Positions 3,364 to 54,409 of a stretch of 64,000 bases of DNA are shown here, one piece after another. Made by a program: the position numbers and the translations under genes. Position 1 is the first letter of the stretch. Each line of letters begins with the position of its first letter. Source of the stretch: Adineta ricciae (taxonomy: Eukaryota; Rotifera; Eurotatoria; Adinetida; Adinetidae); NCBI GenBank assembly GCA_905250025.1, contig CAJNOJ010000165.1, positions 62,001 to 126,000 on the forward strand, read 5' to 3'. The notes under the pieces are model-generated. The model worked only from the letters and a program-made list of their open reading frames with translations. It searched no databases and was not told the DNA's origin.

Positions 3364-5064
3364 CTATTGAAGTTTATACGATTTCTCCCAGAAAGATAGA
3401 TCGTCTTTAGCTTCAGCTAATCGTGCTCGATCCAATAATTCATAAAGATTTTCATGTGTACATTCACACATCTGCAAAAGTTTTCGAATACAATCGATTG
3501 AGTATAAATGAATCTGACTCGGTGTAAAAGATTTTGTTACTAATTTCAGTAATTGTGAATAGAGTCCCGGGTGTGAAAAGAGTTCGATAGTGATCGGCTT
3601 AAAACCTAGTTTATTTGCCTAAATTGCATAGAATTAAATGTTTGAAATTACATCGAAAAAATTCAACTTACGAATCGCTTGATTTTCTCGTCATCAAGTT
3701 CATTGAGAAGATTTGAAATAGTAAAACCTGGTATCATTATATAAGAATTGTATCTTGCAAAAATGAATTGTTCATATGAATTGATCATAACAATTTTAGT
3801 TAATGGAAGATTAGATAGAGAATATTTCGTTTGAGATGAGTCGCTCGATATTGATGAACGTTGATCAACATTGATGGGTTTCGCACAAATTTCATTTTCA
3901 CGCATTGTTCTACAATTCAAATTCGAATTCATACATTCATATTCACTTTTTTTCTCTTTACATACTCTCCAGCTTTCCAATACAACGCAATCATCGAATG
4001 CATCGGTTGACCATGTTCATCCAACACATAGACCTTGACAATCATACACATGTTTTTCTTGAACGTTGAAAATTGTCTTCTTACTTGATTTTTCTCCTTG
4101 GATATATCGTCGATTGGTCGAGCCATTTTGCAGTGTATCAAAAAATCATTAATGCAAACATACGCTTCATCATGGGCAGCAAATAAATTCACGTAAAACG
4201 TATTATCCCGTCCTTTGTACAACGGTTCAACATCGCATTGACAATTGTCAACAACGTTTTGAAACGTTTTCAATACAACATTATTCCACTCATGACCATT
4301 CAAAGGAGTGATCGCTGCTAGACGACATGTCAACAAACGAACGGGTCGTTTGGAATATTTAGTTAAGATGAAACGTAAACGTGACCGTGGCACGTGCTCT
4401 TCCCAAGAATTCAGATCAACGAAGAAGACATTGACTGTATCGTCAACTAGATCGTATTCCATAATTTGAGAACGGTTCCAAGCTGATGCAGTTGGGTCCC
4501 AAGTGACGCAAAGTAAGTTTTTACGCAGATATTCTCGTGGAATATGTAAATCATCGATTGAATTATAATAATCGCTGAAAATATTCATTAGAAGTCAAAC
4601 AAATCTACGAAGGTAAATCAATACTTCACAGTTTTGAAAAAAGCGTCACATTCAACCAGATCTCGAGTTAATTGAATTGTAAATGCATAAGGTGAAATGA
4701 TGGATACAATACAACATTGTTGAATAACATTTAGTTTCAATGATGATGTTTCATATTTATATCCATTGGATGTTACATCGGCGATTAAAACTTCCTCGTT
4801 AGATGTCTTTTTCTAAACAGAAATTCTTGAAAAAAAAGAGACGTTTTTCGAAGAGTTATTTACAACTGATGAATTCCGAATATTCATTTGATCAATTCCG
4901 TTTTGACAAAAGAGAATTTGTTCAGTGATATAGTCATCACCATGTTTCGCTGGTTTATTTATCGGCGTTGAAGAAGTTTTTGGAAACATGCATCGATTAT
5001 ACGATTCCGCTTGTTGAAGAAAACGCCGTAGAAGTTGAGTGCCATGACTTGGATTTCGATGCAT
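3364..5064 (-). CDS. Tudor-domain protein, TDRD5/TDRD7-like
   Basis: Five exons (5064-4864, 4812-4625, 4574-3966, 3909-3672, 3618-3364) join in frame to 496 aa. The start has an in-frame TAA just upstream. Residues ~85-240 form an extended Tudor domain. IISPYAFTIQL matches the SPxxFyiQL entry strand. VNVFFVDLNSWEEHVPRSRL matches the core strand pair around the usual VFFVDYG motif, followed by LLTCRLAAITPL. The SN-like half follows (DNTFYVNLFAAHDEAYVCINDFLI). Such proteins bind symmetrically dimethylated arginine, typically on PIWI proteins in germ granules. The usual YG of VDYG is LN here, so part of the aromatic cage may be lost and ligand binding is uncertain. No LOTUS or RNA-binding domain is visible. 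The C-terminal ~160 residues are helical and unrecognised. Assignment to a specific TDRD is not possible. Confidence 0.75.
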
Positions 5065-8300: not shown

Positions 8301-11300
8301 AAGGAAATTTGCTTCTGATATCATTGAAAAGTCATAGAGGAAATTTCTTTGTGTTCTAGAATTTCAGTGAAAGGCGAGACGATTTGTGTGGAAGAAATCA
8401 TCGAAGCGATTAAGCACGCAGAGTAACTGGATTATTTCATCTTCTCTCCTTGTATTTATCGAATGAAAATCCATTTATATTCGATTATTTTTATTTGAAA
8501 AAAACCACACTGAATATGATTAATTCGTCATCAATCACACATTATTATATCTTGGTAAGTTTCATTTCTTCTCTTTCTCTCTCGGTTACATTTCTTTCTA
8601 AGCTCGTAATAATACTGATTGGAACTAATAGATTTCGGAAATGAAATGACTTACACCGTGAAATAAACATTTCTGCTCATGTCAATCGTCTCAGGTTAGG
8701 AAGTAAAAGACATTACACTACATCAGACTTGAAGTTTTGTAAAGTGCTTGGAAAATCTACTTTTGACATGAAGTGTACCTGTCGATGTTGAAAATGAAAT
8801 TCATTTAGTGACAAGTGTTTCTTTCAGAATTTGCCACTTGTTACATCCGAGCTGTGGAGTTTTCTTGTACTTTTTGAAAGTAAGTTAAACTTTTGATGAG
8901 TCTCAGGAGATTTTCTTTCTGTATTAGGAGTTTTTCTGAACTAATTAGTTGTCATCTGTTATTGATTATTCATGATATGAAATCAAAGAGTTAAAGTATG
9001 TACGAGAAGAGAAGAGAAGTGATTGAAAGAGAACTTCTTTTGTTATATATATATATATATATATCCATGGAATAGAAAAAGAAAGAATTCGAGAAAATTT
9101 GTTTGACGTTGTATTAATAATAATCATAATAGGATGAAAATATCTAACGTACAATGCACAAGAAAGTCCCGGCTATCAAGAGAGCGAGCGAAAAGGCGAT
9201 GAAGGAGAAAAAAAGAGCGGCAAGAAAACGAGACATTCGCCGTCTCTGTTATTATGAATCGTCAGAATGAAGAGGAAAACTGGGAGGAGAAGAAATATTC
9301 TAGACGCCGCCTTCAGTCAATGGTCGATCGACTATACACGATAAACTTGTCTTGTTTTTTATTGTAATTCCGTTCAAATGGCAAAGCAAAAGATTTCTTT
9401 CTTTGCTTCTTGCAAGCGCATTTAAGGAGAGAAATCTAGTCGAATACATTTTCAAGTGTTACTTCTGTCAAATCGGACGTTTCTTCTGTTTTATTTTCAT
9501 AATATCCAGGCAACATCAACCTCGTCGACAACTGCCATTTGGATAGTTAACGAACAAGATTCTACAACAACAAATCTTGATGTTTATCAAGCGTCAGTTC
9601 GAACAATGTGGTATCGTTTTCTCTTAATTATCAGTAAGTAGATCTTGTTGATACGAGCTTTGTTTTTATTCCAATAAATATAAACCTTCGAAACGAACAA
9701 AAAAAGGAAATTGGTTAGCCGGAAAGATGGCTATTTACATGTTCGCTTAATTCTATCAGCTAACCAGAGAGAGGGAGAAAGAGAGAGAGAGACGTGATTT
9801 TAACTCAAGGATACTCAAGCGGAGCACGATGTTCAAGTCGAATTCGGCAAAGAAATTCTGTTATGATTAAAAATGAACAAATTTGTTTCACTTTTTCTTT
9901 TACAATTTTAGTCATTTTCGTTACGGCTGCCGGCAACGTTCTCGTTTGTTTGGCGATAGCACGAGAACGAAAATTACAAAACACAACCAATTATTTTCTT
10001 ATGTCATTAGCAATCGCTGATTGTCTTGTTGCAATACTCGTCATGCCGATGGGAATGATTTCTGAAATTATCGGTAAGTTTTTCTGCAACTAACTCGATC
10101 GATTTTGACTAATGAATTCTTTTCATTAGGTTACTTTCCGTTGTCACATTACGCGTGTATTATTTTTGCTACATTGGACGTTCTATGTTGTACATCGTCA
10201 ATATGGCATATGAGTACGATGTCTATGGACCGATATTTTACAATTCGTTTTCCATTTCGTTATGGAAGAAACAAAACACGTCGTATCATGCTACTGAAAA
10301 TTGTTGCCGTTTGGGCAATAAGCGCCGCTGTATCATCTCCAGTGTTCGTCTTAGGTATTGTGGATAAGCAGAATGTCCTATCCAACGGTGTTTGTGCACC
10401 AAACAATGCCTCATTCAAATTGTACGGTTCTGTATTTGCATTCTATATTCCATTCATTATTATGATAACGACATATGCATTGACGATGCGTTCATTGCGA
10501 AATGTTTTAGTTCATAAACGAAAATATAATCGTGAACGACGATTAAAACAAACTTTCCGACCATTGGCACAGATAATCAATCAATATGCGGAAATAGCTC
10601 ATAACATTCGACGAACATCCTCATCAACAAACAATCCGACAACTTCATTACTATCGAATACAAACACGACCAGTAATAATAACAATCCTAATTCTATTTT
10701 ATCTCGAACTTCCTATGCAATTATTACTACAACGACAACATCACCACCAACAACGGACAGTCGAACACAGTTTTTCCCTTTGCATAGCTCCGATATGAAT
10801 GTGAAACAAGATTCAAATAATATTCAATATGGTTCTATTAAACTAACAAGTGGCACAAACATATCGAATGAATTACTCCATAGTAATCAACATTTAACTA
10901 TTAGTTATATTAAATCGAGTGGAAGTAAGAAACGCCGTGCCCAGCAACAGTTACAGCAACAACAACAACAAAATCTAAGTACATCAAGCAACCGTTCGAA
11001 AACCGACGGCGATATGAGTACTGTATATGAGATAACGGAATGTTCGAAATCAACATCCGATTCTCATGATTTAACGTCAATTACTGGAAATAGTGTAATT
11101 GGAAGATCAATTGTTACTATTGAAGAACAAGATCAACCATTGACTATGTTAGAGCAAGAACAACAAACTTCTCCGACGATAACAACATCAACTATCAACG
11201 CAATATCAACACTCAAAGAAGAAGAAGAAGCTTGTTTGACGACAGATGTAGATAGTCGAAGTAGGTCTTGTTTCTCTCGATTGATTGTCAAAGAAGAAAA

Positions 11301-14300
11301 CCCGTCAAACTTCATTAATTCTTCCTCATTTATCGAGTTTTGTTATGCTTTGAAACCAACTAACAGAATATTGATTATCTAAGATACATGTTTCTATCCG
11401 ACCGAGATAAATCATCTTTATATTCTTTTGACATTATCGATCGGAAAGAATTCAAAGGAACGGAGATTTTGGTATAGACCTCTGATACGATTATTGAATT
11501 AATATTCGATTATTCATTTAACAACATGATAATCAACAAATCTTTGTCTTGCTAAACAAAAACAAAGATTCGATTCGATTAGATTATACGATTGATTAAT
11601 CATGTTTTCTATCTATTTTAGTTGAAGAAGATGAACCAACATACATGCAAATCGTTCCATCGTCATCAACTCATTCGAATCTACCTGAATCAATTTCTCT
11701 TTCATTACCATGGGAATCCTATCTTCCTTTCATGCAAGCGATTCTTCACTACTATCTGCTAGTTTTCCCCTATCGACTTCGCCCATTGCCCATCGAACCG
11801 CCCGAAAGTACGGATGAAGAAAAGCCTGTAACAGTAAAGTTACATCAATCGACATCGACAACTTCATTGAGTCAACGTTTGATAAAAACTTCTCGAACAG
11901 TCTCGACGCAAACCTTTTCAATCCCATCATTGGATTTAACCAATATTCATCCGGCAGACACCAATGAAACTTGTACACTTAATTCAGTTAAACGACGCCG
12001 ATTTCCTTTCAATCACCCACTTTTATCTTCCTCATCTCTATTCACAAATTTTTTTCGTCAATCATCACGAAACGTACTTTCACATTCACGTCAGAATTCC
12101 GATAAATCATCTGCTTCACTTTGGCAGCGTTCCTCGCCTGCATCATCTACATATCCATTTCGACATCAACGTTCACCTCCGTACCATTCATCAACTGTTT
12201 TTCGTCAAATCGAATCGGAAATGGACAACATTCTCTCCGTCGAACATCGTCCGCGTGCATCATCATCGTCGGCTAGTCTTCTTCATACGACCTATGGGCA
12301 AGGTAATCAAATACCCTCACATTGGCATCGGCCGTTGAAACACCGGCATCCTTATCAATCTCATTCATCGTATTTATTAACCAATCCACACCCGTACAAT
12401 CCTCGTAACCACCACGCATTAACTTCGACAACAAATACAATCTCATCTGATTCGTCGTCTGTTTTTCATCGATTTAATCCTCGAGTATTAAGTTCCATTT
12501 CTCATTCTCATCATACATCGTCTCAACGCCTAAATGACGAACATATCGTCGCTGCTAACGAACGCAAAGCTCTTCGAGTTCTCATGATCATCTTTTGTGT
12601 CTTTGTTACTCTATGGACACCGTTTTTTATATGTACATTTATATCAGCTGTATGTGAACAATGTCGTGAACGTATCTCATCGACAATCTGGTTTTCAATA
12701 ACATGGCTTGGTTATAGTTCCTCAATGGCTAATCCTTTTATCTATACGATATTTAGTGATGTTTTTCGACGTGCATTTACAAATATCATTTTCTGTCGGT
12801 CAAATGAGTCAGTATTCTCGCGACAATTTTCAACAAAATCGTCTCGACAGAAAGGTGCTCCTACCGCTGCTCATCAGACGAATAATCATCAACTCTCTTT
12901 TCGGCGAAGTCCAAACCCTGATTATTCGAATCCATCGACACCAATACAATTGAACTCTCCTCCGATCCCGCTGGGCGAAAGTGATGGCACGATTTATATC
13001 AATCGGTGCGCGTCAGATTTATTACGTTAATTGAATAAAGCATCATGATTTGTAGCATGTTTCTTTTCTTTTGCTCGATTTTCAACTTACCCAAGTTCTT
13101 GAAGCGTTTCAATCAGTTGTTGTTTTTGTTCAGGTAGCATTCGTGCGAAAACAGTACCACGAACGCACAACTAAAGCGAATAGAAATGTTGAAAAATGCA
13201 CAAACAAAAGATAAACTTACCCGACGTAATAATTCAGGATGTTTCTCACGTACAACTTGGAAAGATTTGCCAGATATAGCAAAATGATACGGTGTTCGAC
13301 GATCAAGTTCAATCAAACGATGCGACTAGAAAATATTAGATTTGACATTCACCGTTTTCACTTTTCATAATCAAAAGTATTTATTGTTATGTTTTTGTTT
13401 TGTTACTTCGCCATTGACATATGAAAACATGATCAAATAACTGTAATCCGGTCTGTCAATATTCCGATTAGTTTTCTTCTCGGCACGAACGACATCAGAA
13501 ATAGATATGATTATTTAAGAGAGTAATAGATTCTTTCATTAGAAATATTTATCTAGTAATTAGTTATAGAGTGACTTCAAAGAAAGATAATGACACATCT
13601 GCATCGAATTTTTCTTTCTTGAAAGAGATTTTTGTATTTATGATTTATACGTACACTTTGATCATAACGAACTTCTTTCACTCTTCGATTATAAACTTGA
13701 GCATAAGTGAAAGTCGGTGTATCGTCCGATTCAGTTGCTTCAATAGCGATAATTTTTGCATCATCCGGGATCATATCACAATCACGAGCAACACTTAACG
13801 CTGTCAACATGTTATCACCTAGACATGATTATTTCGAAGTTAAGTCATTGAACGTGACAAGTCCTACGCACCAGTGCACATAATTGTTCGAATATTTGCA
13901 TTTGAAAGAACTTTTAATACTCCTAGAAGAAATACAAGCTATTTGCTGAGAGAAATAAGAATAGATTTACCTTCCGTTTGCGGCTTTAGTCGATTCTCCA
14001 TAATGACAAGACCGAGAAAGATTAGACTATGTTCAATTTTCTCTCTAATAATCGTTACAATTAATTAGATACACTAATGTGTACAAAAACAAACAACTAA
14101 CCGTTCAATTCGTTGAATTTTCACGTAGTTCAATTCTAATGGTTTATAAGCCATTGCTAATACCCGATAGCCTTGTTTAGCGTATGTGGAAAGAACTTCA
14201 TTGAAGTTTTTCGGAACTAATCGAAGAAGATTGTTCGATTATCTTTAGCAAAGTACCAAGTCTTACTTGTCTCAGGTCTTGAAAGTTCGGCAATTTTTTC

Positions 14301-18769: not shown

Positions 18770-18855
18770 GCTCGGTAGGCAGAATCGAACTGCTACGCCG
18801 CGAAGCGTCCCTAGGTTTGAAGCCTAGCCCCGGCACCAGCCGAACTCAACCGAGC
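18770..18855 (-). tRNA. Selenocysteine tRNA, anticodon TCA
   Basis: An 86-nt tRNA on the minus strand. The anticodon arm is CTAGG-CTTCAAA-CCTAG, reading TCA. The acceptor arm pairs GCTCGGTTG with the 3' end over 9 bp (one mismatch). The T arm is short (GCAG/CTGC around TTCGATT), giving the 9/4 fold typical of eukaryotic tRNA-Sec. The D stem is long (TCGGC/GCCGG around TGGT) and there is an extended variable arm (ACGC..GCGT). These points exclude an ordinary Ser or suppressor tRNA. It implies that this organism makes selenoproteins. Confidence 0.92.
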
Positions 18856-35523: not shown

Positions 35524-36805
35524 ATGGTTGTGGGAAAAATTGTCATCGCGATTGTCGCAATCGTCGCTGCCATGGTCGCTATTTCAGCAGCAATTGTTCT
35601 AAGTCTTATATCGGTTTATATACCCGATCAAAGTACTTCGGTGACAGGTATGACATGCATCCATGCTTTTCTTTTGAAGAATTGCTTATAATCGTCTATT
35701 CATGGTATTTCAGTTGATGATAAAAATTTCTTCATCATTGTTTACTCTGAATGGTATCATAATTGCAAAGCTTTTACTTCATCTCCACCAGTGATTTATT
35801 TATAATTCAATCTACTTTTTAGCGTATCAGAAGTGCCTAACAGTGGCGTCTAAATTCGCAACAACGGTCACTGGACCAGTTTCAAACATTACAACAACAA
35901 CAGGTGTCACTGTGACATGTTCACAACTAGGATCAACTTCATGTCCAGGTTCCATGGTAAATGGAATATGTACTTGGCAACGCAAATTGGCTGTGACATG
36001 CATTGATGGAACAACTGTTCGTATTCGAGTGCAATCCAATGGTCTACCTGGAAGATGCATGGATGTTCCATCAACTACTTCTATTTCGGAACAAAATGTC
36101 GATTTCGCAGTCAACTTCAATCCGACAGTTAGTGTTAATTCACCGATATTCTCACCAACCACTCAAACACAACTGGACGCTATATCCTGTAACATTACAA
36201 GTCAAAGCTCAGCTCCGTCATGGTCAAATTTAGTTACCTACTCAACAACTTCGTTGGATACCTTAGTTGGAGTAAGTATTGATAATGTCGCCATTCTCAA
36301 TGTCAACAGCGCCAATATGGTTGATCCATTCTATCCATCAGGTAGCTATAGCGCAGAATCAGTCGATAGCTGTTTGGCACATCCTCAGACGAGTGGTGTG
36401 TATCACTACCATGCTGCTAGTGGATGCTCTGTCTCACCTCCAACAGGCAACATTTCGCTGTGTAGTACGTCAAATGGATGTTCAACAAATGTCGCTGGTT
36501 GGATCACATCGACATGGCCTTCATCAGCCAAAAAACTAACTGTTATCGGTATCGCCAAAGATGGTCATGTCATTTATGGACCATACCTTAATGGTGGTAA
36601 ATTAGTTACCACCGGTATCGATATTTGCAATGGAATGTTCTATGATAGCAGTGGTGACTATGGTTATTTTGCCACAACAAAATATCCATATATTACTGGC
36701 TGTTTTGGACCTTCGAACTATCCGTCGGTTGGCCCTAGTTGCACGACAAATGGTCAACAATCGTACACAATGTCAAGCTATGCAGCTGCGAGATATACTG
36801 GATAA
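35524..36805 (+). CDS. YHYH-domain membrane-anchored protein, copy 1
   Basis: Two exons (35524-35647, 35823-36805) give 368 aa. An N-terminal hydrophobic segment (VVGKIVIAIVAIVAAMVAISAAIVL) acts as signal anchor or uncleaved signal. The secreted part is Cys-rich (CPGSMVNGICTW, TCIDGTTVRIRVQ) and leads into the YHYH domain. There SGVYHYHAASGC is followed by LTVIGIAKDGHVIYGP, DICNGMFYDSSGDYGYFAT and YITGCFGPSNY. YHYH domains are widespread in bacteria and scattered in marine eukaryotes; the His pair is thought to bind metal, but no reaction is established. The exon break lies directly after the membrane anchor. It is paralogous to the copy at 53241, with the intron in the same position. Confidence 0.85.
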
Positions 36806-38725: not shown

Positions 38726-41700
38726 ATGAGCTCATCTTCGTCAGCCAACGGTAAGACTTTAGGAACTAGTAGATCGACAGTCGGTATATGTCTAACGGTT
38801 TTTTCTGTAATTTCACTTAGCGACCGATAAAGTGAGAATAACAAGTTGAACAAACGGATTTTCATTACAGCTATTTCATCTCTATCTAGTTGATCGTAAT
38901 AGTATAAAAGTGACGATTTGTTAAACGTTTTAGTGCTTACTTATCTCTCCAATCCGGTTGAACATATGACCGCAAGTGAGAATGATAATCGTCTCGCTGC
39001 TCACATGATCAGCGTTGCTTTGGATGCAGCAAAAGGACAAGAAATATCCACCGAATATCTGGATCAGATTCGTAACACAGCTGACAATAGTTCCAGCCAA
39101 TCGATCTCACTTGCGGCCAAATATATTCTTTGTGTACATGCTGCTCAACACTGTGGATTTGTGGAACCGAATTATTTTGTCAGTTTACCTGAACTTTTAT
39201 CGACTGACAATGTAATAATTCGTTCATGTGTTATGTGGACATTTGCAATGATATTACCATGTGAGAATATTCTGAATTCATCTTTAATTCAACTATTATT
39301 CGATTCATTGAAAAATGAAACACTCGGTTGGAGTGTTGCTTATCTTTTTCGGAAGATGTCGGAAAATGGTAAATACATACCGATGATGCCTGATGCCAAA
39401 TGGATCTCTATGGCAAAGCTGTTGTTCGACGAAAAACTGAGTGAACAGGTTCGCACAGCGATCGTCCACACATTATGTCAAGTGCTCAAGGTTCGACAGA
39501 CAACTGCGCCAGTAATCAAACATGAATTAGAAGAACTAGTGATACTTGAAAAGATTCCCATACAACTCTTTGTTGCAACAGTGAATGCTTTACATTTAAT
39601 GATCATCGATGGTGCTATTCTTGAAGATAAAACAGTGAACAAATTACGCCACTTAGCAAAGAACACTGATCGTACATGTATAGAATGTATTCACGAATTA
39701 CTGGATTTCGTTGATCATAAACGAATTTTGTCTAATGCAGTCCTGTTTACAGGTGATAGCCATGTGAAAAAAGAATTAACCATTAGTCAGAGTACATCAA
39801 TCTCTCGTTGTGAAGAAGAATCGATCGAGCCAACATCGAAAGAGTTAGATCTCGATCATTTACTAGGTACGATTGGTTATCTCGATCGAACATTTAATAT
39901 CGAAGCGCAACCAAAAACTGTCTCATCGGGCAGTAATCGGGCTTGGTATCGATCGAATCTTCAGGAAATTGAGAATTTAGGAATGTTAGCTACAAAAGGA
40001 CAATTGAAAGACCGAGATTTTGATTATCTTTTAACCCAGTTCAAAAGTGCGGTTTATGTCGGTTGGACTAAACTGAAAACTCGATCGTCCATACATAAAA
40101 TGATCGCTACTATCTTTCGAGATGCAGCGAGAGTCGAACAAGCCATTCCATTAGGCATCATTGATGAAATGATTGGTCGATTGATAGATGACGAACAAGG
40201 TGTATCTGGTTTATGCGGTGAAACTCTTTTAATCATCGTCCAGAACAAACATGACTTAAACGATGAACAAATGAAAAAAATTAAAGAAGCCTTAATCAAA
40301 ACAAGCGATTCTGCAGTGAAACAAAACTTGATCGAAATCTACGCCCTGTACATTTTGAAAGGCTATCATTTAACACTAGATTTAAGTTCCGTTGAAAAAA
40401 ATTTACAAAATCCTGATACGTGCTTAACTGCCAGTTATCTGTTTTTTAAAGCAGCTGCTATCGAAAAACTCACATTTACTGATCAAACATTACGAATTCT
40501 GAGTCAAGTCAGCATGAACGATAAATATGATATCAAGGCACGAAACAATTGTTTATGGGCGATAGCGTACAGTATCCGAGAGAGCAAAGCGAAGCAGTCG
40601 ATCTCTGCAGAATTAATCAATGATCTTGCTAAAATGCTGACCAATCTAGATACGAGTATCAAACAAACAGCAGCAGTAGCACTTTGTTATTATGGTAAGG
40701 ACGAAAAGATTGTCTTATCTGTACAAGTTCTTGAACGATTAGCTATTATACTCGTCGCAAAAGATCAAGCGCTATTAGATAATCTTGTCTCTCTCTATCT
40801 GAAAGTGTCACAAAGTGATCAAATTATTCCTGCTTTGGCGTTGGACAACCTTGCGCATATTCTTCAACATCCGGACTTTTCCCTTCGTCAAAAAGTTATT
40901 TGGATATTCAATCATGTCGTGACTAAAGGAAGAGAACTATCTGCAGTCAGTCTCGATAAAATCGATCTTTGTTTAGATGATCAAGAATTCCATATTCGAA
41001 ATCCAGCAGGTCAAACGTTTATTACCTACTGGCAAAGTCAACTGCAGAAAGGTGATAATGAGCGAATTCGCCATATATCAGCTCGATTAGAGAAACTATT
41101 GATTCTATTTCAGCATCCATACGAATCAACGGTAAGAATTTCGGCATTGAAATTTCTTCAACAACTGGTAGAAAAACATATTGATTTGCCCGAAACAATT
41201 CTTCAATTAATTGAAATGTGTCTTTATGAACATGAAGCAAAGATTTCTAAGGAAGCCATCGCCGTTGTTCAATCTTACTCCCAACGGCGTTCGCTGCGAA
41301 AGACTACTGTTGTTTGTTTAGAACATTTATTAACCACTGAAACACCAATTCTGTCTGATATCATCGTCATTTTGAAATCTATCGTTGAATCTGGTCATGT
41401 TCTATCGAAAAAAATTGTCGATATTCTTGGTCAATTGATTTTAACGAAAAGCGATCCTAACAATATCGTCATTCTTCTCACGTTCGCTGATCGCCATCAA
41501 CCATTATCAAAATTGGCCGACGAATTACTTCGTCAAATTCATTTTGCTAAAGCGTTAAAATACTCGACACATCAAATGACAATCGACAAAGCTGTTGAAG
41601 GACTACTTCAATTGACGCAGAAAGGTCAACAGTTATCATTATTTGCTCTCAATATATTATTCGAATTGCTGAAATCAGTCAAATTCCAGTCTTTATTAAT

Positions 41701-44700
41701 GCCAATTATCCTTACTGTTATCTGCAATGGACAACATATAAAAGATGACGAACATCGTTCTTTTGTTAGATCAAATCTTTCTTCAAAGTGGTAGTCATCC
41801 GACACATGATTTAGTATTGATCTTTACTGAATTGAGTCGACAAAATCAAATAATTTCTGATAGTGCTGTACATCATTTGGAAAAACTTCTTGACGATCGA
41901 TCGATTAATATATTCATCATCGAGATCTATCAACATTTGCTCGAACGACGAAAATCTCTCGATCCATCCATTGTTCAACGAATTCTCAAATCGTTTGATG
42001 TGAATGTCTGGAAAGATCTATCTACGGATTTCCGATATCGATTAACATCATTCTTCAATGCTTTAGCCAACAATCAACCTATCGATGCAGATCAAACTTG
42101 TTTACCTTCGTTTCTTCGACTGCAACAACCAGTTACGATACTTCGAGAAATCTGTTCGGCTATTCATACTCTCGCAGTCTATCGCCCATATCTTCAGCCA
42201 AGAATGATCGATGCTCTTTTTCAACTATTGGACAGTGAAATCGATACAGACATTCAAGAAATCATTTTGAAAACATTAAGTTTAGTTCGAACGAATTTTC
42301 CTGATGGCTACAATGATCTAAAAGAATGTCTGCATCTGTTCGATCATGCTTCAAATCTCGATGATCAATCATTGCTTATACAATTAAGACGTACGGTGAA
42401 AAGTAACAAGAAATTACCAGAAGCTTATTTAATACGATTATCACATATGCTCTATAGTTGTGATCCCAAACTGAAGGCAGAAGCCGCTGTGCTTCTCGCT
42501 TCGACTCTTCCGGCATGTTCAAGTCTTCCGAAGAAGGTACTTGATGCTATCTATTTAACTTTGTTGGATGATTCAATTAATATGCACACATTACCATTGC
42601 TGTTCGATTTAAAATCAACATAGACACCATCGGTGACTGATGCTCTCCTTCATCTTGTCTGTTACTCGAAACAAGCATCGATTCAACAGCAAGCTCAGAG
42701 ATTATTGATCACTCAGAAGAATAGCAACGTCAAAGTACGCGAATTTCTTGACAATCAAGATCTTGTGCTATCAGAAAAGCAGCACGCACATGTTCAAACA
42801 ATGTTCCTATCATCGGATACCAATGATGTTCATCGAGCATTGAAGATCATTCGTGCCATGATCATTCTCGATAAGCATGTACCACATAAACTTCTCTCTG
42901 CTGTTGTTGCCCAATTGACCCAACATCCGGATGAAATTATCGATTTATTGATTCTTGCATTCAAGCATGGCATTCAGTTCGATGAAATACTCTTTCGGTC
43001 GATTAAAAATGATCTCTGCTTATGCCAAACTGAACATATGTTCGCCCTCATTCGAATCTTGACCGAAAAAGCTGTTCCTTTCCATGAAAAAACACTGGAA
43101 CTTATTTTGTCTCAAGTGAATNTCCGGATGAAATTATCGATTTATTGATTCTTGCATTCAAGCATGGCATTCAGTTCGATGAAATACTCTTTCGGTCGAT
43201 TAAAAATGATCTCTGCTTATGCCAAACTGAACATATGTTCGCCCTCATTCGAATCTTGACCGAAAAAGCTGTTCCTTTCCATGAAAAAACACTGGAACTT
43301 ATTTTGTCTCAAGTGAATTCAAATGCAGTGAACGAACCACTAAATTGTTTAGAAAACATTGCCCGATATCAGCATCTACCGGATCGTCTCATTTCGTATT
43401 TCGTCAAACAGCTCTTTGAAGATTCGGACGATATCGTCAAAAAATCTTTCAGTATCCTTCGTCTTCAAATCTCACGAAGTTACATTAAATTTTCCCATGA
43501 GTTGTTTCAATCTATTCCATTACCGTCTATCATCGATCGAGATCGACTGACTAAAGAAACAACCGCTCAACAATATCTTGGGACACTCCAAACGCTTTTA
43601 TTTGTTGAATATTTTGAACCAACGACATTCGAACTTCCAGTTACTCAATGGTCTCGGCAATGTTTATGCATTGATTTATTGACGAGCTGTTCCGATCAAA
43701 CTCCTGATCGAATTCTGACATTTTATCATCATTTAACAAAGTTCGAATTGTTCAAACAATACCAATTGTACGATGAGCAACGTGATGATTTTCTGCGAGT
43801 ATTAATTGAAAAACAACGCTCGTGTCATTTCAATTTAGACACCGTCAATCAAGTTCTTATCTTTTCAAGGACTTCAACGAATCAAACGATAAAAATTTTA
43901 CAATCGGAAGATGATGATTGGCTCTCCCGAATGCGTTTAGATTTTATTCGAGAGATAATTAGTCAAGGATCGCTCCATGCTCATTACTCTCAAACAGTCC
44001 TGAATCAGTTAATTGAGCGAATTTCCAAAGAATCAAATCTTTTGGCAGAATTGATTGAACCGTTTCTTCAACTTGCACAAACGCCGGATGAGATTTTGAC
44101 TATTCTTGATCTTGTGACAACATATCAAATTAATGGTGATCATTTATTCGATATATTTGTTAAACCTAAGAATCTCGATGGATTCAAATCATTTCAAAAA
44201 GAGCTTGAAGTGATAATTATCAACAAAACATTATCAGTTTGTGCCAATGGATCTGACGAACAGTTGAAAGTTGCTCATCATAACTTACATATCTTGCTTG
44301 ACCATGGTTGGCGATTAAGCAAAATCACTGATTTATTGGATAGTCTCAAGCAACATCAAGGGAACATCGATAGTTTGCCTCGATTTCTGGAATCTTTGCA
44401 GATTCTTGTAGATTATAAAATAAATGAAAACGTTCTGAATCTGTTAAGAGATATCTTATGTCATAAAGATGTTCAATCTTGGCCAGCAAGTATTCACAGT
44501 CTCGCCATCGAACACTGCTTTGGATCCATCAGTTCCGAGAAAAATGTAACCACTCTATTAGCTGAAATCAAAAGTGACAATCCAGATATTAATGTTGGCC
44601 ATTTCAAAAATATGTTTGCTGAAATCGATCAAGCCTATGAAAAAGATTCTTCCTGCTTTCCAGAGACTCTACCAGTCAAAAACTGGAACATCGTGCAAAT

Positions 44701-47700
44701 TCAAAATTGGGCTACTAAAGTTTATACGTTTCAATCGACTGCATCCAATCGCTGTCCTTTGTCAGAAATTCTTGCCGTAATCAAACGTGCTGTGTATCTT
44801 GATTCTCATTTTGAACCACGACCAATTCAAGTTTTGGCTGTTCTTATTATGCTTGATCGCAATCAGCAAGGAGGACGTCTTTTACAAATATTAACAGGTG
44901 AAGGTAAATCCACCGTTGTTTCGATCCTGGCTGTGATCAAAGGTTTACAAAATCAACACATTGATATTATTACAAGTTCAATGACTTTAGCAAAACGCGA
45001 CGCTCACGAACGTGAAAAATTCTATGAATATTTCAATCTAAGTGTGTCTCATAATAACGATGAGACTAGTTACGTTTCCGGGCAAAAACCTTGTTATGCA
45101 GCTAGTATCGTCTATGGCACTTCTAGTCAATTTCAATTCGATTTACTTCGTCATGAATTTAGCCTACTCGATACACGTTCAATTAATAATAACATCGGTG
45201 TAGCTCGTCGTCACGACGTGATAATCATCGATGAAGTTGATAGTATGCTTATTGATGAAAACAATACCATTGCTCGTTTAGCTGACCAGTTGCCTGGAAT
45301 GGAATGGCTTAGTTCATCACTCTATGGAGTTTGGCGAGCAGTTGAAGCTGACGCGGACGTCTTCTCCCATCGAAATTCAATCATAAAGGATCTCAAAACA
45401 CTTTTTCTCGATCCAAAATCACCATTACAATTTCCCAAGCATTTACGCCGATCCGTCATTGATTCTCTTCCCACGTGGATCGAGCATGCGATTCGTGCTA
45501 AAGTTGAATACCGTCTTGATCATCACTACATGATCAAAGATGACGAAACACGCACGAAACGAATTGTGCCTATCGATTTTTCCAATACAGGTGTCATTCA
45601 GACGAGTACAACATGGAGCGATGGTCTTCATCAATTTCTTCAAATCAAACACGGCCTCAAAATGACTCCGTTGACTGTAACTACTAATCACCTCTCAAAT
45701 GTCGGTCTATTTACTCGTTATGGTACTCAAATTTACGGTTTAACAGGTACCATCGGTTCGAAAGACGCTCAAAATCTGCTGCAGAAAATTTACAATGTCG
45801 ACACGGTCATTATTCCACCTTTCAAAGAGAAACGTCATATTGTATTCGATTCCATATTGACTATGAGCGATGATGAATGGTTGAACACTATCGTTTCTAC
45901 TAGTGTAAGTCATGCACAAAATCATCGAGCTGTTCTCATCATTTGCGAAACTCGATTGGATGCCAAAGCTATCAGCAAAGAGTTGCAACGTGCGAATCCA
46001 ACTTGTCTCATTCGTCGTTATACAGACAATACCGATGCAGTCGAATCCAATGCTGTGAATGATAAAATTCAACATGGTGAGATCATTGTGGCCACGAATT
46101 TGGCAGGCCGAGGGACAGACCTGAAAACCAGCCCAGAAGTGGAGAAACATGGTGGCCTTCATGTTTGTTTGACATTTTTACCTAGTAATTTACGTGTCGA
46201 AAAGCAAGCATTTGGACGTACATCTCGACAAGGCAATCGTGGCACATCACAAATGATTCTTTGTCACCATCGCACTTTACGTCAATTGGCGAACACTCAT
46301 CTCAATCTATCTGATACAGACCTAACTGATTCTTCTAATCCATTAACTTTGTTTAGTTGCTGGCGAGAGCAAGCCGAACGTGCGCATCTCGATCGTATTT
46401 GGACTGAAGAAATTAATGAAATTAAATTGAAAGATAATTTATTCAAGAAGTTTTGTCAACTGCTCGCTCAATTACGAAGTGTAAACAATGATCCTTACCG
46501 ATTGCTCAGTGTAAAGGAACAATGGGGTCTATGGCTGAAAGCAATGGATTGTGCCACTCAGAATCGGAAAAGGCTTGAACAGGCAGTCGAGGCAGATGGG
46601 TATGAATGCCATGAAGTGCCTCGCGGTGATGATAGTTTTTATCATGCTATATCACATCAACTAGCGGGAGAATTAGAGGTACGTGATATCAAACAGAAAG
46701 TTATGAAACATATCGATGACAATAAGGATCTTTACACTGAAATGAATGATGAACAACAATATCGCGCGACAAGCAGTGTGTTAAATGTGTCGATCATTAT
46801 TTACCGAAGTGATTATGGAGGTCCACACGTTTATAAACATGAAAATGCTTCAGTTGAATGCTTTCTTGGATATGAAGTTGATTCTTACTATGTTTCTCTT
46901 CAAAAGACCACCACAGAAAACAAAACATCCACCGCACAGCCCCGTAGCAGTGACGCAAAACCACGTCAGCAAAAGATATCGACCCGTGCTAAACTGTTCA
47001 ACGGTATGAAGTTTATGGCAAATAAAGTCAAAGATTTAGGTCAACATCTGATAAAACAATCTGAAACTCAAACGTTCAAATTGAATCTTGATGCTGACTT
47101 CGAAGTTTTCAAGAAGCAGATCGAGAAAGATTTCCAAACAGATGATATCATTCAAAATCCTTCCTATCTGATGTTAGAAGCTTCTACTAAGATGCAAAAA
47201 TTACTTTCATGGGCCAATAAGTTCCGATCTTGGTGTAGTTCTAATCATACTCCAGGAAAGAATATAGTGACTGTTGAACAAGTGATGAGTTTACTCGAGC
47301 GAGCAATCAAACTGGATTCAGTCTTTGCATTTGATGCTTTGACTAATTACGGCTTCTGTCTTCTTCATCAAAATAAATTAATGGGCGAACACAAAACAAA
47401 AGCAAAGTTATATTTAATTAAAGCACAGCAATGCGTTGGTGAATATATCTTGCCGCAATTATATAGCATGCAATTAAAATCCACGGAAAGTTCGGATGAG
47501 TTCGTTTTTGACGATTTTGCCCAACAAATTCAAATCAAAGTCGATATTCTTCAACTTTATCTTAGTCATGTGAGTAATGCGATTACAGTAATTGAAGAAT
47601 CACAAAAACTGATTGATATTATCGATACCACTAGTAAAGAACAGAGGATCAGCAAAAAATTGTATCATGATGAAGTGGGTAAATTTCTCGACACATGTTC

Positions 47701-50700
47701 AGGTTCCATAGATATCAGTTTTCATCACCTAGCTGTCCACAATGATACCGTAAGAAAAGATCAAGCTATTGAATTATTGAAGAAACTGACAAACGACGAG
47801 GGTGTTTCGATTCATTTTACAGATACTAATCTTGAAGCAATGAATAAAATCACATGCATTTCGGATTCTGTTAATACTAGAGTGAATGTTCGATATCTCG
47901 ATGTTCCTGAAGTGTTGAAGCTGTTAGAAAACATGTCGGCTGACCTGACATTAACGTCAACGACTGTTGAAAGCTATCTCGAGACCATCAAAATCATCAA
48001 TAAAGACATTAAACTTGCCACGGATTCGTCACTCACGATGATGTCGCCCTCCAAAGCTGAAGCTTACATTAATGCACCAAGCAGTTCGGTTAAATCGATT
48101 CTGTTCCCATCGATGACGCTAGAAGAGTTCAAGAAAATTCAAGACAAAATAGATAAAGCATCTTGCGAATTGACTTTTCAGAATTTACCTCTTTCAGAGA
48201 TGAAAAAGATGATCGGAACGCTCAACAAACCTTTTTCTGTTGAATTGCATTGCTTGGCCATTGAACAAGCCAAGCTCATCGCCGAAAAAGTCAATGATCG
48301 TCAAAACTTCGTCATTACTGTGCTCAATTTATCAAAACAACGTGCCCAAGCCATTGTTAAGTCGTTTGACTTGAAAGAACAAGATGTTAAGGCAAGTTTT
48401 AAGCATCTAGCAGATCAATTTCCGAAGACCGATCGACCGCATGAGGAACTCAATACTTACAATATGTTAGGTATCCACGTTTTGATCATCATCGATGAAC
48501 TTGGGCCACGGCCGTGGATTAGCATAAGCATGGTCGTTGCCTTAGGGGTAGGTCAAATGATCGGTGGTATCTGTCTTGCTGCTCTCACTGGTGGACTAGG
48601 GAGCAGTTTAGGTGTTGCCTTGATTTGTGAAGGTGTTAACGACATTGTTTATGGAATACGTGGTGCCATATGTCGGCAGTTCTCATGGAAAGACTATGGT
48701 ATTCAAAAAGGAGTGAGTCTGGCTATTTGTTTTGTTACACTCGGCTGTTCAGCAATCAAACAAGCAGCTCAAGCGGCCAAAGCAGCTGGAACAACCGGAG
48801 CATCATCTTTATTGAAGGCGACGGGTCGAGGAACACTTACCATAGTAAAAAATAGTTTTCGAACCGTCGGTTCTGGCGCCATCAAAGGTATATCATCGAC
48901 TAGTTGGAAACTAGCATGCCAGCAAGTTGCAGTAACTTGTCTCGAGACTGGCGTCCGACAGCTTACAAATTATGCAGTGGATACTTTGTCCAACAAAACT
49001 TTATCGGAATTTACCCGTCTCATTGAAAGCGAAATGGAACGCATTGTTTATGTTAAACAATCAAGTATCGAGTATCAGCGTGCCGTCAAGCGAGCGATCA
49101 ATGCAGATAAATTTAATGGAAACAGACTCTGGTGGCAGCAAATAGAACAAATAGCGTTGCAGCTGATGTCGAAACAGAAAAATGAGTACGTCGAAGCACT
49201 GAAATCTTTGTCTAGTGGTGTTGCTACTACTATTCCAAGTCATAGCAGACAATATCTACAAGGACAAAGCAGCTCAATTGATCAATGTCTCAAAATAGCC
49301 CAGCTAATAATGAAATTGGCACCAATGATCAAGAATTGCCGTCAGTTGATGGTCATTGGTGAAAAGTTCTTCGAAATATATCAGCGTGAATTAAATCTAC
49401 TCGCACAGAGAATGCCTGCTTTCGAAGATTTACTCATTTTGCAGTCCAACCAGTCGATTACTATGGAAGACGCCAAGAAAATTCATGAACTTCTGATTCG
49501 TAATAATATTCTATGCGATACCGATGGTTTCAATGATCAGTTTTTTACTCTAACGGAGCAGGCAGATTTCGTTGGGCAAGTCTCGCCTTCTCAATTCAAT
49601 GCAAGCCAACCAATAAAAAGTTTTCAAGACAAATTGCGTATTGAACTGGAAAAAGTTACCTTTGATTCTGATACGCAACGTGGCTATGTCATGGATCTTT
49701 TGAGCCAATTGTTAAAGCATGAACCAAACCCGCTGTCTGTTTCGCTAATGAATAAAAAAATCATAGACTTTCTTGTTCAGCAAGTGTGTGCGATCATGAA
49801 TGGAGCTTTCATTGCACCATTAACAAATTTTGTCATTTCAAATACTATTCAAAAGATGTCAACAAAAATCCAACTTGCTCTCGATCCCGATGGAACAGTA
49901 ACCGAGAAGTTGATGCAAGAAGGCTCAAAGCGATACTTGAATATTGTTGCCAATGATATGTTTGAAAAGATTCAAAGTGGAGAAATCGAAATAGATCCAC
50001 ATGCACGAAAGAAACTTGAAGAACTTCAAAAGCGGACCGAAAATGATCCAGAAAAAGCGATAAATTACTCCGAAAAAAAGGCTTTAGAAGTGATGAGCGG
50101 TGAACAAGGTGATAACATCACTCTATCCATCTTGGCAATGATAACCAAAACTCCAATCACTGTGCTTCAAAATTCGTCGGACAATTCCTCAAACCAAGAC
50201 TCCAATAGTCCAAACGTAGATTTGAAATACACACCACCAAACATCGATGAAATAACAGGAGCAGTGATTGATGGACATTATGAGGCAGCACAAGGTGTAA
50301 TAGCTACTGTTGATGTTGGACCTAATGATTGCTTATATTTTTCTGTTCTAAGTCGAATGCCCAATAAATTCCAATCGATTGATGATATGCGAGCTCAATG
50401 TGCTGCATTCATTTTAACTACTCCACATTTTATAGAAGGAATTTATCCGGCCGTCAGTGTCATGAGTCAAGCTCGAACGCCTTTACGACGGAAATTCTTG
50501 ATGGGGGAGGGTGCTGGGTGTAAGTGGCTCACTAGCTTTCATATGAAATTCCATGTTCGTCTTTCTTTTTATTCTAGCGTCGAGTCTGCCGAAAAATTTA
50601 ATCTATCGTATGCTCGATGAAATTGGAAACGTAGATGATGAGGATCGTGAAAATAAGATAAAACAAATCGTAGCGAAATATATGTGCGATAAAAACGCCA

Positions 50701-51188
50701 ACGGTCAATCGGAAGAGAACAAACCACAGAAAAGTAAACAAGGGGAGCATGTAATTAATAAAGGCATAAGGGATGTTGAAAAAAAAATTCTTGATGCGCT
50801 TGGCATAAAATATGATGAAAAAAGTGTTGGATTAGATGAAAAGATTCGGGAAGAAATCGACAATGTAAAAGGTTCAGCAGACTGGAAAAAGTATAAAAAT
50901 GAAAATGCATCTTGTTTTGGTAATGCAGCGACCATTTTGGTCAAACTTGCTGAAAAACACAAGACGCAAATGGAAAATTGTGCTTTAAGTGGTGAACAAG
51001 AGGTGAATAAGAACTATTATGACGCATTAAAAAGTGGTATCCGCATTATGATTGAGAAGAAAATTTATGTTGACAACGAGCTCAGCGTGGATAAGAGGGA
51101 TGAAAAAAAAGTACAAGACCTTCTAAACAAAATCCAGACACACCTAGAAAATTTGACAGAAAAATTAGAGAACAACAAATATAAATAG
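38726..51188 (+). CDS. Giant helical-repeat/SecA-motor/OTU-like protein (copy with lesions)
   Basis: About 4,000 aa. Only three exons: 38726-38750 (MSSSSSAN), 38934-50519 and 50578-51188; both introns keep phase. Residues 1 to ~1,900 are HEAT/ARM-like helical repeats. A full SecA-type motor follows (~44750-46500): Walker A TGEGKST, IIIDEVDSMLID, RTWSDGLHQ-like TTWSDGLHQ, YGLTGTIG, IVATNLAGRGTDLK, GGLHV and FGRTSRQGNRG. Next is an OTU-like domain (46590-46910) reading EVPRGDDSFYHAI; the catalytic Cys is Ser and the final His is Tyr, so it should be inactive. Then come helices, a Gly-rich hydrophobic segment (48510-48660), more helices, and a second partial OTU-like motif with its Cys (VGPNDCLYFSV, ~50310). 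The tail is highly charged and coiled. Lesions: a frameshift near 41745-41760, TAG at 42621-42623, and a duplicated block around an N at 43122. SecA is the bacterial preprotein translocase ATPase; its role here is unknown. Confidence 0.8.
42926..43318 (+). repeat. 196-bp exact direct duplication around a single N
   Basis: 42926-43121 and 43123-43318 appear identical from TCCGGATGAAATTATCG to CTCAAGTGAAT and are separated by the only N of the window (43122). Dropping one copy plus the N leaves the protein frame continuous, so this is an assembly join rather than a biological repeat. Confidence 0.92.
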
Positions 51189-53240
51189 ATTAAACATTAA
51201 GCCATTGGAATGTTTCAACAAAAGACTGAAATCACACCACTAATTACAGTTTTTGTTTTGCAGAAATCAACTTGTAATATGCTGAAGAATACTATTGTTG
51301 TGATGTACTTTTGAAATAAAATGATATAAAACACGAATAATTAGTTTGTCAACATATTTCATATGAACGATGCAAAAAAAAATTCGTTCGAGTTCTGTAC
51401 AATAAACACAAAAGGGAAATGTAGAAAAGAATATGTCTCTAGACATATTTGTCACAGTTGGCATGAGAATATAACCCCAGTTAGGAATAAATAAACAATG
51501 TCTTACACTATACCACGTACTTCAATGTTGAAACATACACGATATTTAATGTATCGATAAATGTTATTTTCATATTATCCTGATATATTTGGTTTAATAG
51601 CATTTGACAACTCTTGTAACATCGTTTTTTGTATTATTAAAAGATTTCGGTCAGTCATCCGCGTTCATATTAGAAACGTCATTTCTGTTCACGAAATGAT
51701 AACCATTGCGTGTTTTGTACCAATGAGAGAACTACGAGTAGTCATCGAAAATATTTCTTTTAACCACTATTGATGTAATATTTCGAAATAGTTGTCGTAC
51801 TTGCACACATTAGTTATATCGGACAGACTACACTAACAACACAGAAATCAGATCTGCTAATTGCGAAAATTTTTATGTTGGCCTGTCGGGATGTATGCTC
51901 ACCTTTTTAGGCGTTTTTCTTAACATGTGCTCTAAAGAAAGTTATACAAGAGGGTGCATTGAAGAATTCCATATCTCCCCCTGCTTTCCTCTTCAATTTG
52001 ATACGTTATTCTGAGAAGTCTTAATGATCAATTCACTAGTAGAACGACAGCATTCGTCTTTTGTTTTCAACTGGAACATGTTTTTATACAGCAATACAAT
52101 AATATCAATCAGGCGTACATCTCAAACTAATTTTATTTATACAATAATTTCAAATAATAATTGCGGTAGCATTTCTAGATATACCGAGTCGTTTGGAGTC
52201 TTCAGAGTATGATTTGTTTGATACAAGGTATATAACAGATAGTCAAATATTTTGAACGATGTTGACATATATCACTACAAAATGTACTGATTAGTTTGTC
52301 AGTTCTTCGCATACAGTCCGTTACTTGTCTCGTGATACTTTTTCCATACATATATATGACGAGATAACGTAATTTAAAAGCACCGTAGCTCAGTAATGTT
52401 ATTAAATATCGTTTGGTACAATTTCTTATCTGACCATAGCATTTTTACGATTCAGCTCTTATCTGCTCTGTTAGATTTCTCAGTATACTTCCTGATGATT
52501 GAGCACATAAATCTCAATCCAAATTCAAATCATGATAGTTACAGTATTGATACTTATTTTCACGCATTAAACTGAATATATCTTATTTGTATGCAAAAAA
52601 ACCATTTCTTCCTTTTCGAATGGACATGTCGTCAAAATGTGACTTCGTTCTATGATTAATAACGACCTTGCAGCGCATCTCGTTATGTATTGCAGAGATA
52701 TATATGAAAATATGACATTGATCGATTTTTTTATTAGTACAGCCCCGTATCGACATATTCTACCTACGCCTCTTTCTCGCTTCTCAGGTAGATTTGTCAC
52801 GACTACAGACTGATAACAACCATTTATCCGTAACGTCGACCTAAAAAACATTGAAAATTGCAAGCAGTACAGATACACTCGAGGACATGATATATTGATA
52901 GAAATATTTTTATTTGATTACATCAACAAAACTATGAGTGTTTATCAAAAACATTGCAATGGTTATCATGGATTTCACTGCACTCACTAAATACGACAGA
53001 AAAAAAAACTTTGTATATATAGTCAATATTATTTGATATTAAAACGAAGGCTTTTCCCATTAATCATTGAAAAATATGTACAATTGCGAAGTTATTTTTC
53101 ACCAATCAATCGTGCTTTCAGTGACTATGAATAAAATATATTCGCTCTATTTGTTGATGTGCATATGAGTGCAACATAAGCGTTATTTAGTATATTGTTT
53201 CATTACAGATACTGTATTATCTTAATTTTCAACTAGACCA
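51189..53240. other. Intergenic, no gene seen
   Basis: 2 kb of AT-rich sequence between the giant gene and the second YHYH gene. No frame here shows family motifs or spliced continuity. Confidence 0.5.
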
Positions 53241-54409
53241 ATGGTTGTCGGAAAAATAGCAATCGCAATCGCTGCCATTGTGTTTGCGACACTGGCCGCT
53301 GCAACTACTGTTGTATTGAGTCTTATATCAATTTATATTCCTAATCAAAGTAGTCCAGCGTCAGGTATGACCGTAGAGCACACATTCAATAATGAATTTG
53401 TGTATAATGTAACTAACGTTTAGATTACCAAAAATGCCTCACAGTAGCATCGAATTTTGCCACCACGGTCACTGGGCCAGTCGCAAACATCACAGCGACA
53501 ACTGGTGTCAGTGTGTCATGTCCTCAGGTGTCCACGTACTCATGTCCAGGCTCGTTAGTCAATGGAGTATGCACTTGGCAACGCAAACTAGCTATCACTT
53601 GCATTGATGGCTCAACAGTTCGTATTCGCATACAATCCAATGGTCTTCCATCACGATGTATGAATGTGCCGCTGACAGCACAAGTCAAAGAACACGATAT
53701 TGATTTCGAAGTGAATTTCAATCCCAAAGTGAGTGTCAATTCACCAACACAATCAGCAACAACTGCAACTCAGCTCAATAGTATCTCCTGCAATGTATCA
53801 AGTCAAAATACAGCACCAACATCCTCCAATATGGTTGCATATTCTCTACAACCATATCTATCAACGATGGCAGGTCTCAGCATCGATAATGTTGTCATCT
53901 TAAATGTAAACAGCGCTGACAACGTCGATCCATTTTATCCACCGGCTGGTTATGAACAAGAAGGTATCGATGAATGTTTGTCGCATCCTCAAGCCAGTGG
54001 TGTCTATCACTATCATGTTGGTAGCCATTGTGTTCTGTCGCCACCATCCGGTAATCTAACATCGTGTGGTAATACAAATAATTGTCTTGCCGATGTTATT
54101 TCATATATGATTGCACGTTGGCCATCATCTGCCAAGAAATTAACTGTAATTGGCATCGCCAATGATGGTCATGTTATCTATGGGCCATATTTGAACAATG
54201 GTCAACTAGTTACCAGCGGTACTGATATTTGTAACGGCATGTTCTATGACAGCAATGGAAACTACGCATATTTTGCAACAACAAAGTTTCCTTATATTAT
54301 GAGTTGCTTTGGACCTGGAAACTACCCATCATTTGGTCCTAATTGCACTAGCAATGGTGTATCATCTTATACGATGTCGCATTATGCTTCATTGAGATAT
54401 ACTGGATAA
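53241..54409 (+). CDS. YHYH-domain membrane-anchored protein, copy 2
   Basis: Two exons (53241-53364, 53424-54409) give 369 aa. The first exon is 124 nt, exactly as in copy 1. It starts MVVGKIAIAIAAIVFATLAAATT, the same signal anchor. The ectodomain is clearly homologous throughout (YQKCLTVAS.FATTVTGPV; TWQRKLA.TCIDG; SNGLPSRCM). It carries SGVYHYHVGSHC, LTVIGIANDGHVIYGPY and DICNGMFYDSNGNYAYFAT, and ends HYASLRYTG. Signal anchor, cysteines and YHYH core are all conserved between the copies, while their intron (59 nt here, 175 nt in copy 1) and flanks are not, so selection has kept the protein. Function is unknown. Confidence 0.85.

Follow-up and report, generated by a model that had tools for sequence, protein, structure and literature searches.

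What is a bacterial-type protein-export motor doing in the nuclear genome of an animal? The question is raised by a gene of the bdelloid rotifer Adineta ricciae, at positions 38726-51188 of the window analyzed here, by which we mean the whole 64,000-nucleotide stretch of contig CAJNOJ010000165.1 (positions 62,001 to 126,000; assembly GCA_905250025.1). The initial annotation read this gene as a SecA motor recruited to a cytosolic role, with helical repeats before it and two inactive OTU-like domains after it. Taken together with its relatives, we find it somewhat better than evenly supported that the gene is one of a family of giant proteins that combine a SecA motor with the build of polymorphic toxins, and in which a circularly permuted OTU peptidase likely frees a variable C-terminal tip. 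This polymorphic-toxin-like interpretation concerns the family, and not the window copy alone.

The motor lies in the main open frame listed for the locus, which spans 2491 residues (43145-50620, + strand, as are all parts of the gene described below), and is identical to that of a deposited A. ricciae protein of 3961 residues (P0001). Profile matches in this frame to SecA_DEAD (E 4.2e-35), P-loop_SecA (2.8e-9), SecA_PP_bind (8.3e-6) and Helicase_C (2.8e-5) place DEAD domains and a clamp-type (SecA_PP_bind) stretch (approximately 45473-45640) within a motor at 44735-46264, and bear out the SecA assignment initially made for 44750-46500. The ATPase motifs named there were likewise located, with TGEGKST at 44894, IDEVDSML at 45227, GLHQF at 45623, LTGTIGS at 45740, ATNLAGRGTD at 46091 and GRTSRQGNRG at 46214. 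Two long helices resembling the SecA scaffold follow (46340-46594), and alignments to Bacillus subtilis SecA stop at about residue 737-747 of that protein. Superposed on substrate-engaged SecA, the predicted motor model matches it over 584 residues at 3.4 Å, and modeled fold and motifs agree on a SecA-type motor, here nuclear-encoded, which may retain ATPase activity and thread polypeptides. Housekeeping SecA and SecA2 share the ATPase motifs, DEAD domains, clamp-type stretch and first long scaffold helices, whereas the rotifer motor is fused to other domains. Identity to three SecAs is 20-21% over the aligned stretch, and the motor scores below threshold both with the top NCBIfam SecA model, at 203 bits where 862 are required, and with the best equivalog model, TIGR00963, at 168 (cut-off 800); a housekeeping identity was ruled out by these scores together with the tree position described below. 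PADLOC defense models gave no match at E 0.01 for either the 2491-residue frame or the tip.

The domain that carries our interpretation lies further downstream. Where the initial annotation had seen a partial, dead second OTU, we recognize a complete domain, OTU-2 (49937-50518), in permuted order: the strand-and-His half (His in GHYE, 50273) comes first, and the Cys half (Cys in NDCLY, 50324) after. The dead second OTU was dropped once the motif order was read in this way, with His before Cys and both kept. A profile of 20 rows matched OTUD5 (E 3.5e-6) through two segments whose order is exchanged, each weak singly; once the halves had been rearranged into the usual order, matches were colinear for OTUD5, OTU1, OTUD3 and OTUD2, those to OTU1 and OTUD3 being better, that to OTUD5 showing no gain and that to OTUD2 slightly worse, with unrelated chains appearing from E 0.0082. 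Both His and Cys are present in 50 of 54 non-redundant rows (His alone in two, neither in two), these rows being drawn from 62 among 170 sequences scanned, and the profile behind the count having been built from rows chosen for the motif. A search with the OTU-2 domain of another member returned 18 proteins, all with SecA_DEAD; the 13 that were new, which are close kin of the query, all carry the His, the Cys and a Gly-Gly at +52. The predicted OTU-2 model has a pLDDT (predicted local distance difference test) score of 86.7; Foldseek gave no match to it in the Protein Data Bank (PDB) at E <= 1e-3, and its VIA list held no OTU, the handling of a changed chain order not being established for either tool. 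The sequence signal points to OTU proteins, which distinguishes OTU-2 from the clan CE peptidases and acetyltransferases (Ulp1, YopJ/HopZ), and we regard it, from its sequence, as a predicted OTU-type cysteine peptidase domain that is complete, permuted and retains its catalytic pair.

The domain immediately behind the motor, OTU-1 (46553-46903), is of ordinary order and is a predicted pseudo-enzyme in which Ser replaces the catalytic Cys. Its profile is colinear with OTUD3 (positions 7-116 of 117, E 9.5e-5), and Pfam OTU is found in 4 of the 11 OTU-1 members; assignment of the fold rests on sequence, as structural match rows span residues 1-647 of the second model only. The initial description of a domain without Cys and His holds for the Cys, which is absent from all 11 aligned rows (Ser in ten, Gly in one), and for the window copy, which has no His, but not for the members at large, as His is present in 5 of the 11 rows. 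The accompanying proposal, of a recruited cytosolic motor whose dead OTU folds are kept as ubiquitin-like binders, thus fits OTU-1 only, and we consider it improbable given that His and Cys are both retained in 50 of 54 rows of OTU-2, next to a swapped tip.

Directly after OTU-2 lies the boundary between body and tip (50501-50518), which reads MGEGAG (Gly-Ala-Gly) in the window and contains Gly-Gly in 42 of the 50 OTU-2 rows that retain both His and Cys. Among the 32 closest relatives, the alignment to P0001 breaks off at residues 3737-3767, immediately past OTU-2, in 17 (for three of these, P0005, P0013 and P0026, because the gene model itself finishes at that point or no more than 7 residues away), continues to 3775-3834 in 4 and ends earlier in 11. 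The boundary was found in 44 proteins, and after 9 with tips shorter than 90 residues were dropped, the remaining 35 tips fell into 18 clusters at blastp E 1e-4; with the new proteins added, 47 tips formed 19 clusters. Tip similarity at E 1e-4 was lacking in 73 of the 110 pairs whose bodies are at least 45% identical, and detected in 37. Tips of different clusters occur on bodies up to 74% identical (P0040/P0058), and the tips of P0025 and P0029, whose bodies are 79% identical, have no direct similarity yet share one loose cluster; every pair of bodies more than 80% identical has similar tips. Domains in the tip regions of relatives include Endonuclea_NS_2 (above cut-off in P0118, below it in the A. 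ricciae paralog C11, which is P0031), an OTT_1508 deaminase (P0014), DUF7587 (P0064) and Agro_virD5 (A. ricciae paralog C451a); P0014 and P0064 are gene models without a Gly-Gly boundary that stood outside the clustering, and their boundaries come from a separate analysis. The same order of His, Cys, Gly-Gly and tip recurs in two metagenome-assembled genomes (MAGs) of Bacteroidota, read for one of them (L071) from OTU-2 to tip only; 15 bacterial genomes were searched for this module, of which 11 gave no match and 2 a partial match only. The window tip (50578-51188, about 203 residues) appears to be without relatives in database and genome searches: it matched only P0001 itself among protein-database candidates of allowed length, occupies one place in its own genome, and has no Pfam match above cut-off and no NCBIfam match at E 0.01. 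These comparisons argue for a conserved body with swapped C-terminal tips, as in polymorphic toxin-like proteins, and for predicted toxin-type domains in the tips of some relatives, that of the window excepted. Because the catalytic pair of OTU-2 is kept, and stands directly before the swapped tip, a role in processing or effector release is indicated.

The family extends well beyond this locus. The motor region is matched at E <= 1e-3 by 1208 of 7168 candidate proteins, and the best 120 of these 1208, to which our description of protein relatives refers, include proteins from Rotaria, Adineta, Didymodactylos, Brachionus, Opisthorchis, Clonorchis, Hydra, Darwinula, Lutzomyia, Tetrahymena and the Rickettsiales (Tisiphia); some of the animal records may hold symbiont DNA. 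The 130-Mb A. ricciae assembly itself contains 16 SecA_DEAD places, seven in single open frames of 3112-5303 residues. With rotifers, flukes, Hydra and an ostracod represented, the initial statement that animals have no SecA does not hold for proteins of this type. A scan of prokaryote genomes found at least 30 loci with motor relatives or SecA, and the matches listed include Rickettsia and other Rickettsiales, Legionellaceae and Parachlamydiales, as well as MAGs of Flavobacteriaceae, Neisseriaceae, Cytophagales and others, some perhaps misbinned. Eight of the prokaryote loci resemble ordinary SecA, seven of which fall inside the ordinary SecA clade. The tree holds 116 motors (168 matches, minus 21 with coverage below 85% and 31 near-copies folded in) and was built quickly, with long branches, 35 of its 113 inner branches open and plastid SecA left out. 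In this quick tree, eight housekeeping SecAs group together as a single clade with support 100, set off by a branch of 2.7 changes per column; the bacterial and eukaryotic relatives are intermixed, and the window motor falls within a clade of 17 rows (support 100) in which every named member is a rotifer. Tree and scores support a SecA-type motor outside the housekeeping family, its bacterial kin are mostly intracellular, and the initial reading of a conflict-type architecture finds support. As judged from aligned motors, the giant SecA-like proteins make up a family with members in rotifers, flukes, Hydra, an ostracod and Tetrahymena, and among bacteria mainly in intracellular ones. Three related loci were found among viral contigs, of which the one in the tree is placed with bacterial and unassigned relatives; the IMG/VR contigs L067 and L068, which encode SecA-like giants of 3555 and 3557 residues, are either viral or misassigned bacterial.

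Individual members carry further domains. The 5303-residue open frame of paralog C451a (L018) combines a SecA motor with a C-terminus that resembles Agrobacterium VirD5, and two other A. ricciae loci have a von Willebrand A-like domain past the motor (VWA_4, above cut-off in L021 and below it in L023). An Ulp1/RickCE-type peptidase lies N-terminal to the motor in the rotifer members P0108 and P0118. The Rotaria gene model P0015, in which a SecA body is joined to extra Pfam domains that we take to be transposase-type, could be an artifact of the model.

How such a protein might work can be sketched from its parts. The helical N-terminus noted initially matches HEAT only weakly (E 0.0093, below cut-off) in its first frame (38966-41629, P0001 residues 1-888), and HEAT/ARM Pfams are precomputed in some relatives (for example P0004 and P0033); this region probably binds a partner or target. 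The SecA-type ATPase, with its clamp-type stretch, would be positioned to thread a protein chain, and a hydrophobic Gly-rich segment (48482-48757), with 19-residue hydropathy values of 2.08 and 1.60, could make contact with a membrane; a third hydropathy peak (1.64) lies at residues 2206-2224, and several rotifer and bacterial relatives show comparable peaks. The permuted OTU-2 would most likely cut in cis at or near the Gly-Gly, in the manner proposed for the releasing peptidases of polymorphic toxins, and the freed variable tip would carry the activity, nuclease-like, deaminase-like or other as its counterparts in relatives suggest. In the rotifer, parasites, competitors or the animal's own cells might be the targets. 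Motor fold and motifs, the permuted His-Cys order, the conserved Gly-Gly and the swapped tips come directly from the computation; from these we infer ATPase activity and threading by the motor, and likewise contact with a membrane, cleavage of the protein by itself, toxicity and the target. The fullest version of the proposal, that animals encode ATP-driven, self-processing modular toxins, in which SecA handles its own or a target chain, the permuted OTU cuts a built-in Gly-Gly and sets exchangeable effector tips free, and in which intracellular bacteria and eukaryotes have repeatedly exchanged genes, is one that we advance tentatively. An adjacent immunity gene, a mark of polymorphic toxins, was not seen: there is no + strand open frame of at least 100 residues at 51189-53500, where spliced small genes would escape this search, and the nearest genes encode YHYH proteins.

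The rival that survives best concerns the window copy alone, which may be decaying debris without present function; we rate this a little short of an even chance, and it is compatible with a toxin-like reading of the family. The initial estimate of a protein of about 4,000 residues is matched by P0001, but the window does not encode it in one clean frame. Residues 1-888 of P0001 map to 38966-41629, residues 1241-3762 to 43115-50530 (97.8% identical) and residues 3759-3961 to 50577-51185, and the gene model bridges, between the first two blocks, a frame change (between 41629 and 41794), an in-frame stop (42621-42623) and a frame-shifting tandem duplication (42926-43320; 197 bp, 2.0 copies, 99% matches), which is either genuine or an assembly artifact. 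All three breaks lie upstream of the motor, the helical region continuing in another frame, with the stop, at 41745-43148. A homologous copy (C275, L014; 94-95% DNA identity) has a single open frame where the window gene has its breaks, and its own homology to the window stops at about 47169, just past OTU-1. Both copies are therefore damaged, at opposite ends, that of the window upstream of the motor and C275 past OTU-1. The terminal DNA of C275 (L014 1-412) is not homologous to the window, has an internal near-repeat and lies near the contig end. These breaks, the truncated C275, the Gly-Ala-Gly boundary and the relative-less tip suggest that the window copy itself is perhaps decaying. Against this stand the 2491-residue open frame, intact splice-site consensus and the ratio of nonsynonymous to synonymous rates (dN/dS) between window and C275, which is 0.197 in the motor, 0.395 in the preceding helices and 0.52 for OTU-1 by simple NG86 counts without a significance test; these values point to constraint on the window motor since its split from the C275 copy. 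The splice sites belong to a 58-bp intron (GTAAGT...TTCTAG, 50520-50577) at the body/tip boundary, predicted initially from its edges at 50519/50578 and used in the P0001 gene model; in paralog C11 an intron is placed 36 residues past its own boundary. Debris would, moreover, leave the family-wide conservation unexplained.

It is less likely, though worth weighing, that the rotifer family is a domesticated intracellular defense or quality-control machine, whose motor unfolds foreign or damaged protein, whose OTU-2 acts in trans and whose variable end serves recognition and not poisoning. An in trans role for OTU-2, whether in deubiquitination or against different substrates with a Gly-Gly, would likewise be unlikely in our estimation. 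Known OTU members do cut after the Gly-Gly of ubiquitin, several open frames in the genome are long (for example 3241, 3753 and 3435 residues), helical repeats are present, and the first 187 residues of P0001, as judged from hydropathy, contain no hydrophobic stretch; the bacterial relative L050 has one at its N-terminus by the same measure. A machine of this kind fits poorly with the nuclease-, deaminase- and VirD5-type domains that relatives carry toward their tips, and with a Gly-Gly that stands in cis at the boundary, in an order repeated in Bacteroidota MAGs. Lastly, although Rickettsiales, like other bacteria that live inside cells, have related motors, a bacterial contaminant or endosymbiont contig was set aside as a vanishingly small prospect, in keeping with the initial annotation, on account of GPCR-, Tudor- and lipase-type genes on the same contig and the intron, to which similar GC content, a clade whose named members are all rotifers and a protein deposited from A. 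ricciae may be added.

Elsewhere in the window, the SecA gene has a YHYH-domain gene on either side (35843-36802 and 53513-54406), both on its own strand and 66% identical to each other. At 10105-13027, two adjacent frames match a rhodopsin-type seven-transmembrane family, one its front and middle and the other its back part, and ARAGORN in bacterial mode called a selenocysteine tRNA on the - strand at 18770-18853.

If our interpretation of the family is correct, animals, ciliates and intracellular bacteria would harbor a bacterial-type protein-threading motor that is not part of the export pathway and is joined to an OTU predicted to cut its own chain, where a Gly-Gly within the protein offers a testable cleavage site. 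A ubiquitin-protease fold would be linked to toxin release, bdelloid rotifers would possess a polymorphic-toxin-like arsenal, and animal proteins deposited as 'Protein translocase subunit SecA' would be misnamed.

The components of this architecture are known singly. A permuted bacterial OTU with His before Cys, EschOTU of Escherichia albertii (PDB 6W9S), has a solved structure; in the available part of their 2020 EMBO J report (PMC7396840), its authors assign it to the vicinity of the OTU family in clan CA, with a possible position intermediate to clans CA and CE. EschOTU is, like OTU-2, an OTU-type enzyme with His ahead of Cys in the chain, and differs in being a deubiquitinase, in a report whose available part leaves SecA unmentioned, and in the residue two after the His, which is Asn in EschOTU, Glu or Thr in 37 of 54 OTU-2 rows and Asn in one bacterial row; 6W9S was not among the listed matches of OTU-2 profile searches. 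A SecA DEAD-like protein is listed for Legionella fallonii in an excerpt of PMC4256840. Since SecA-like effector or toxin domains (PMC3482391, PMC8195603, in the parts available) and a permuted OTU are already in print, the initial suggestion that nothing of the kind had been described was too broad, and novelty attaches to the combination alone: we found no report of rotifer SecA-like giants or of a SecA and permuted-OTU module in a literature search whose coverage mostly excluded subscription papers and preprints, and the combination, and its occurrence in animals, seem undescribed. The giant actinobacterial toxins, as far as the accessible text of PMC8195603 describes them, also hold a SecA-like ATPase beside other toxin domains; theirs come with glycosyltransferase and transporter domains and a predicted role in secretion, and no permuted OTU is noted in that text. 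The closest parallel is with the polymorphic toxins and intracellular effectors of PMC3482391, in the available portion of which Amoebophilus effectors include SecA-like helicase-related domains and OTU peptidases occupy positions suggesting processing and toxin roles. Rotifer proteins share with these systems a long conserved body, a variable, putatively catalytic C-terminal tip and a predicted peptidase domain before the tip; they differ, on that portion of the source, in that a secretion signal and an immunity gene were not seen for the rotifer gene, in their residence in animal nuclear genomes, and in the recurring module of SecA motor, permuted OTU and Gly-Gly.
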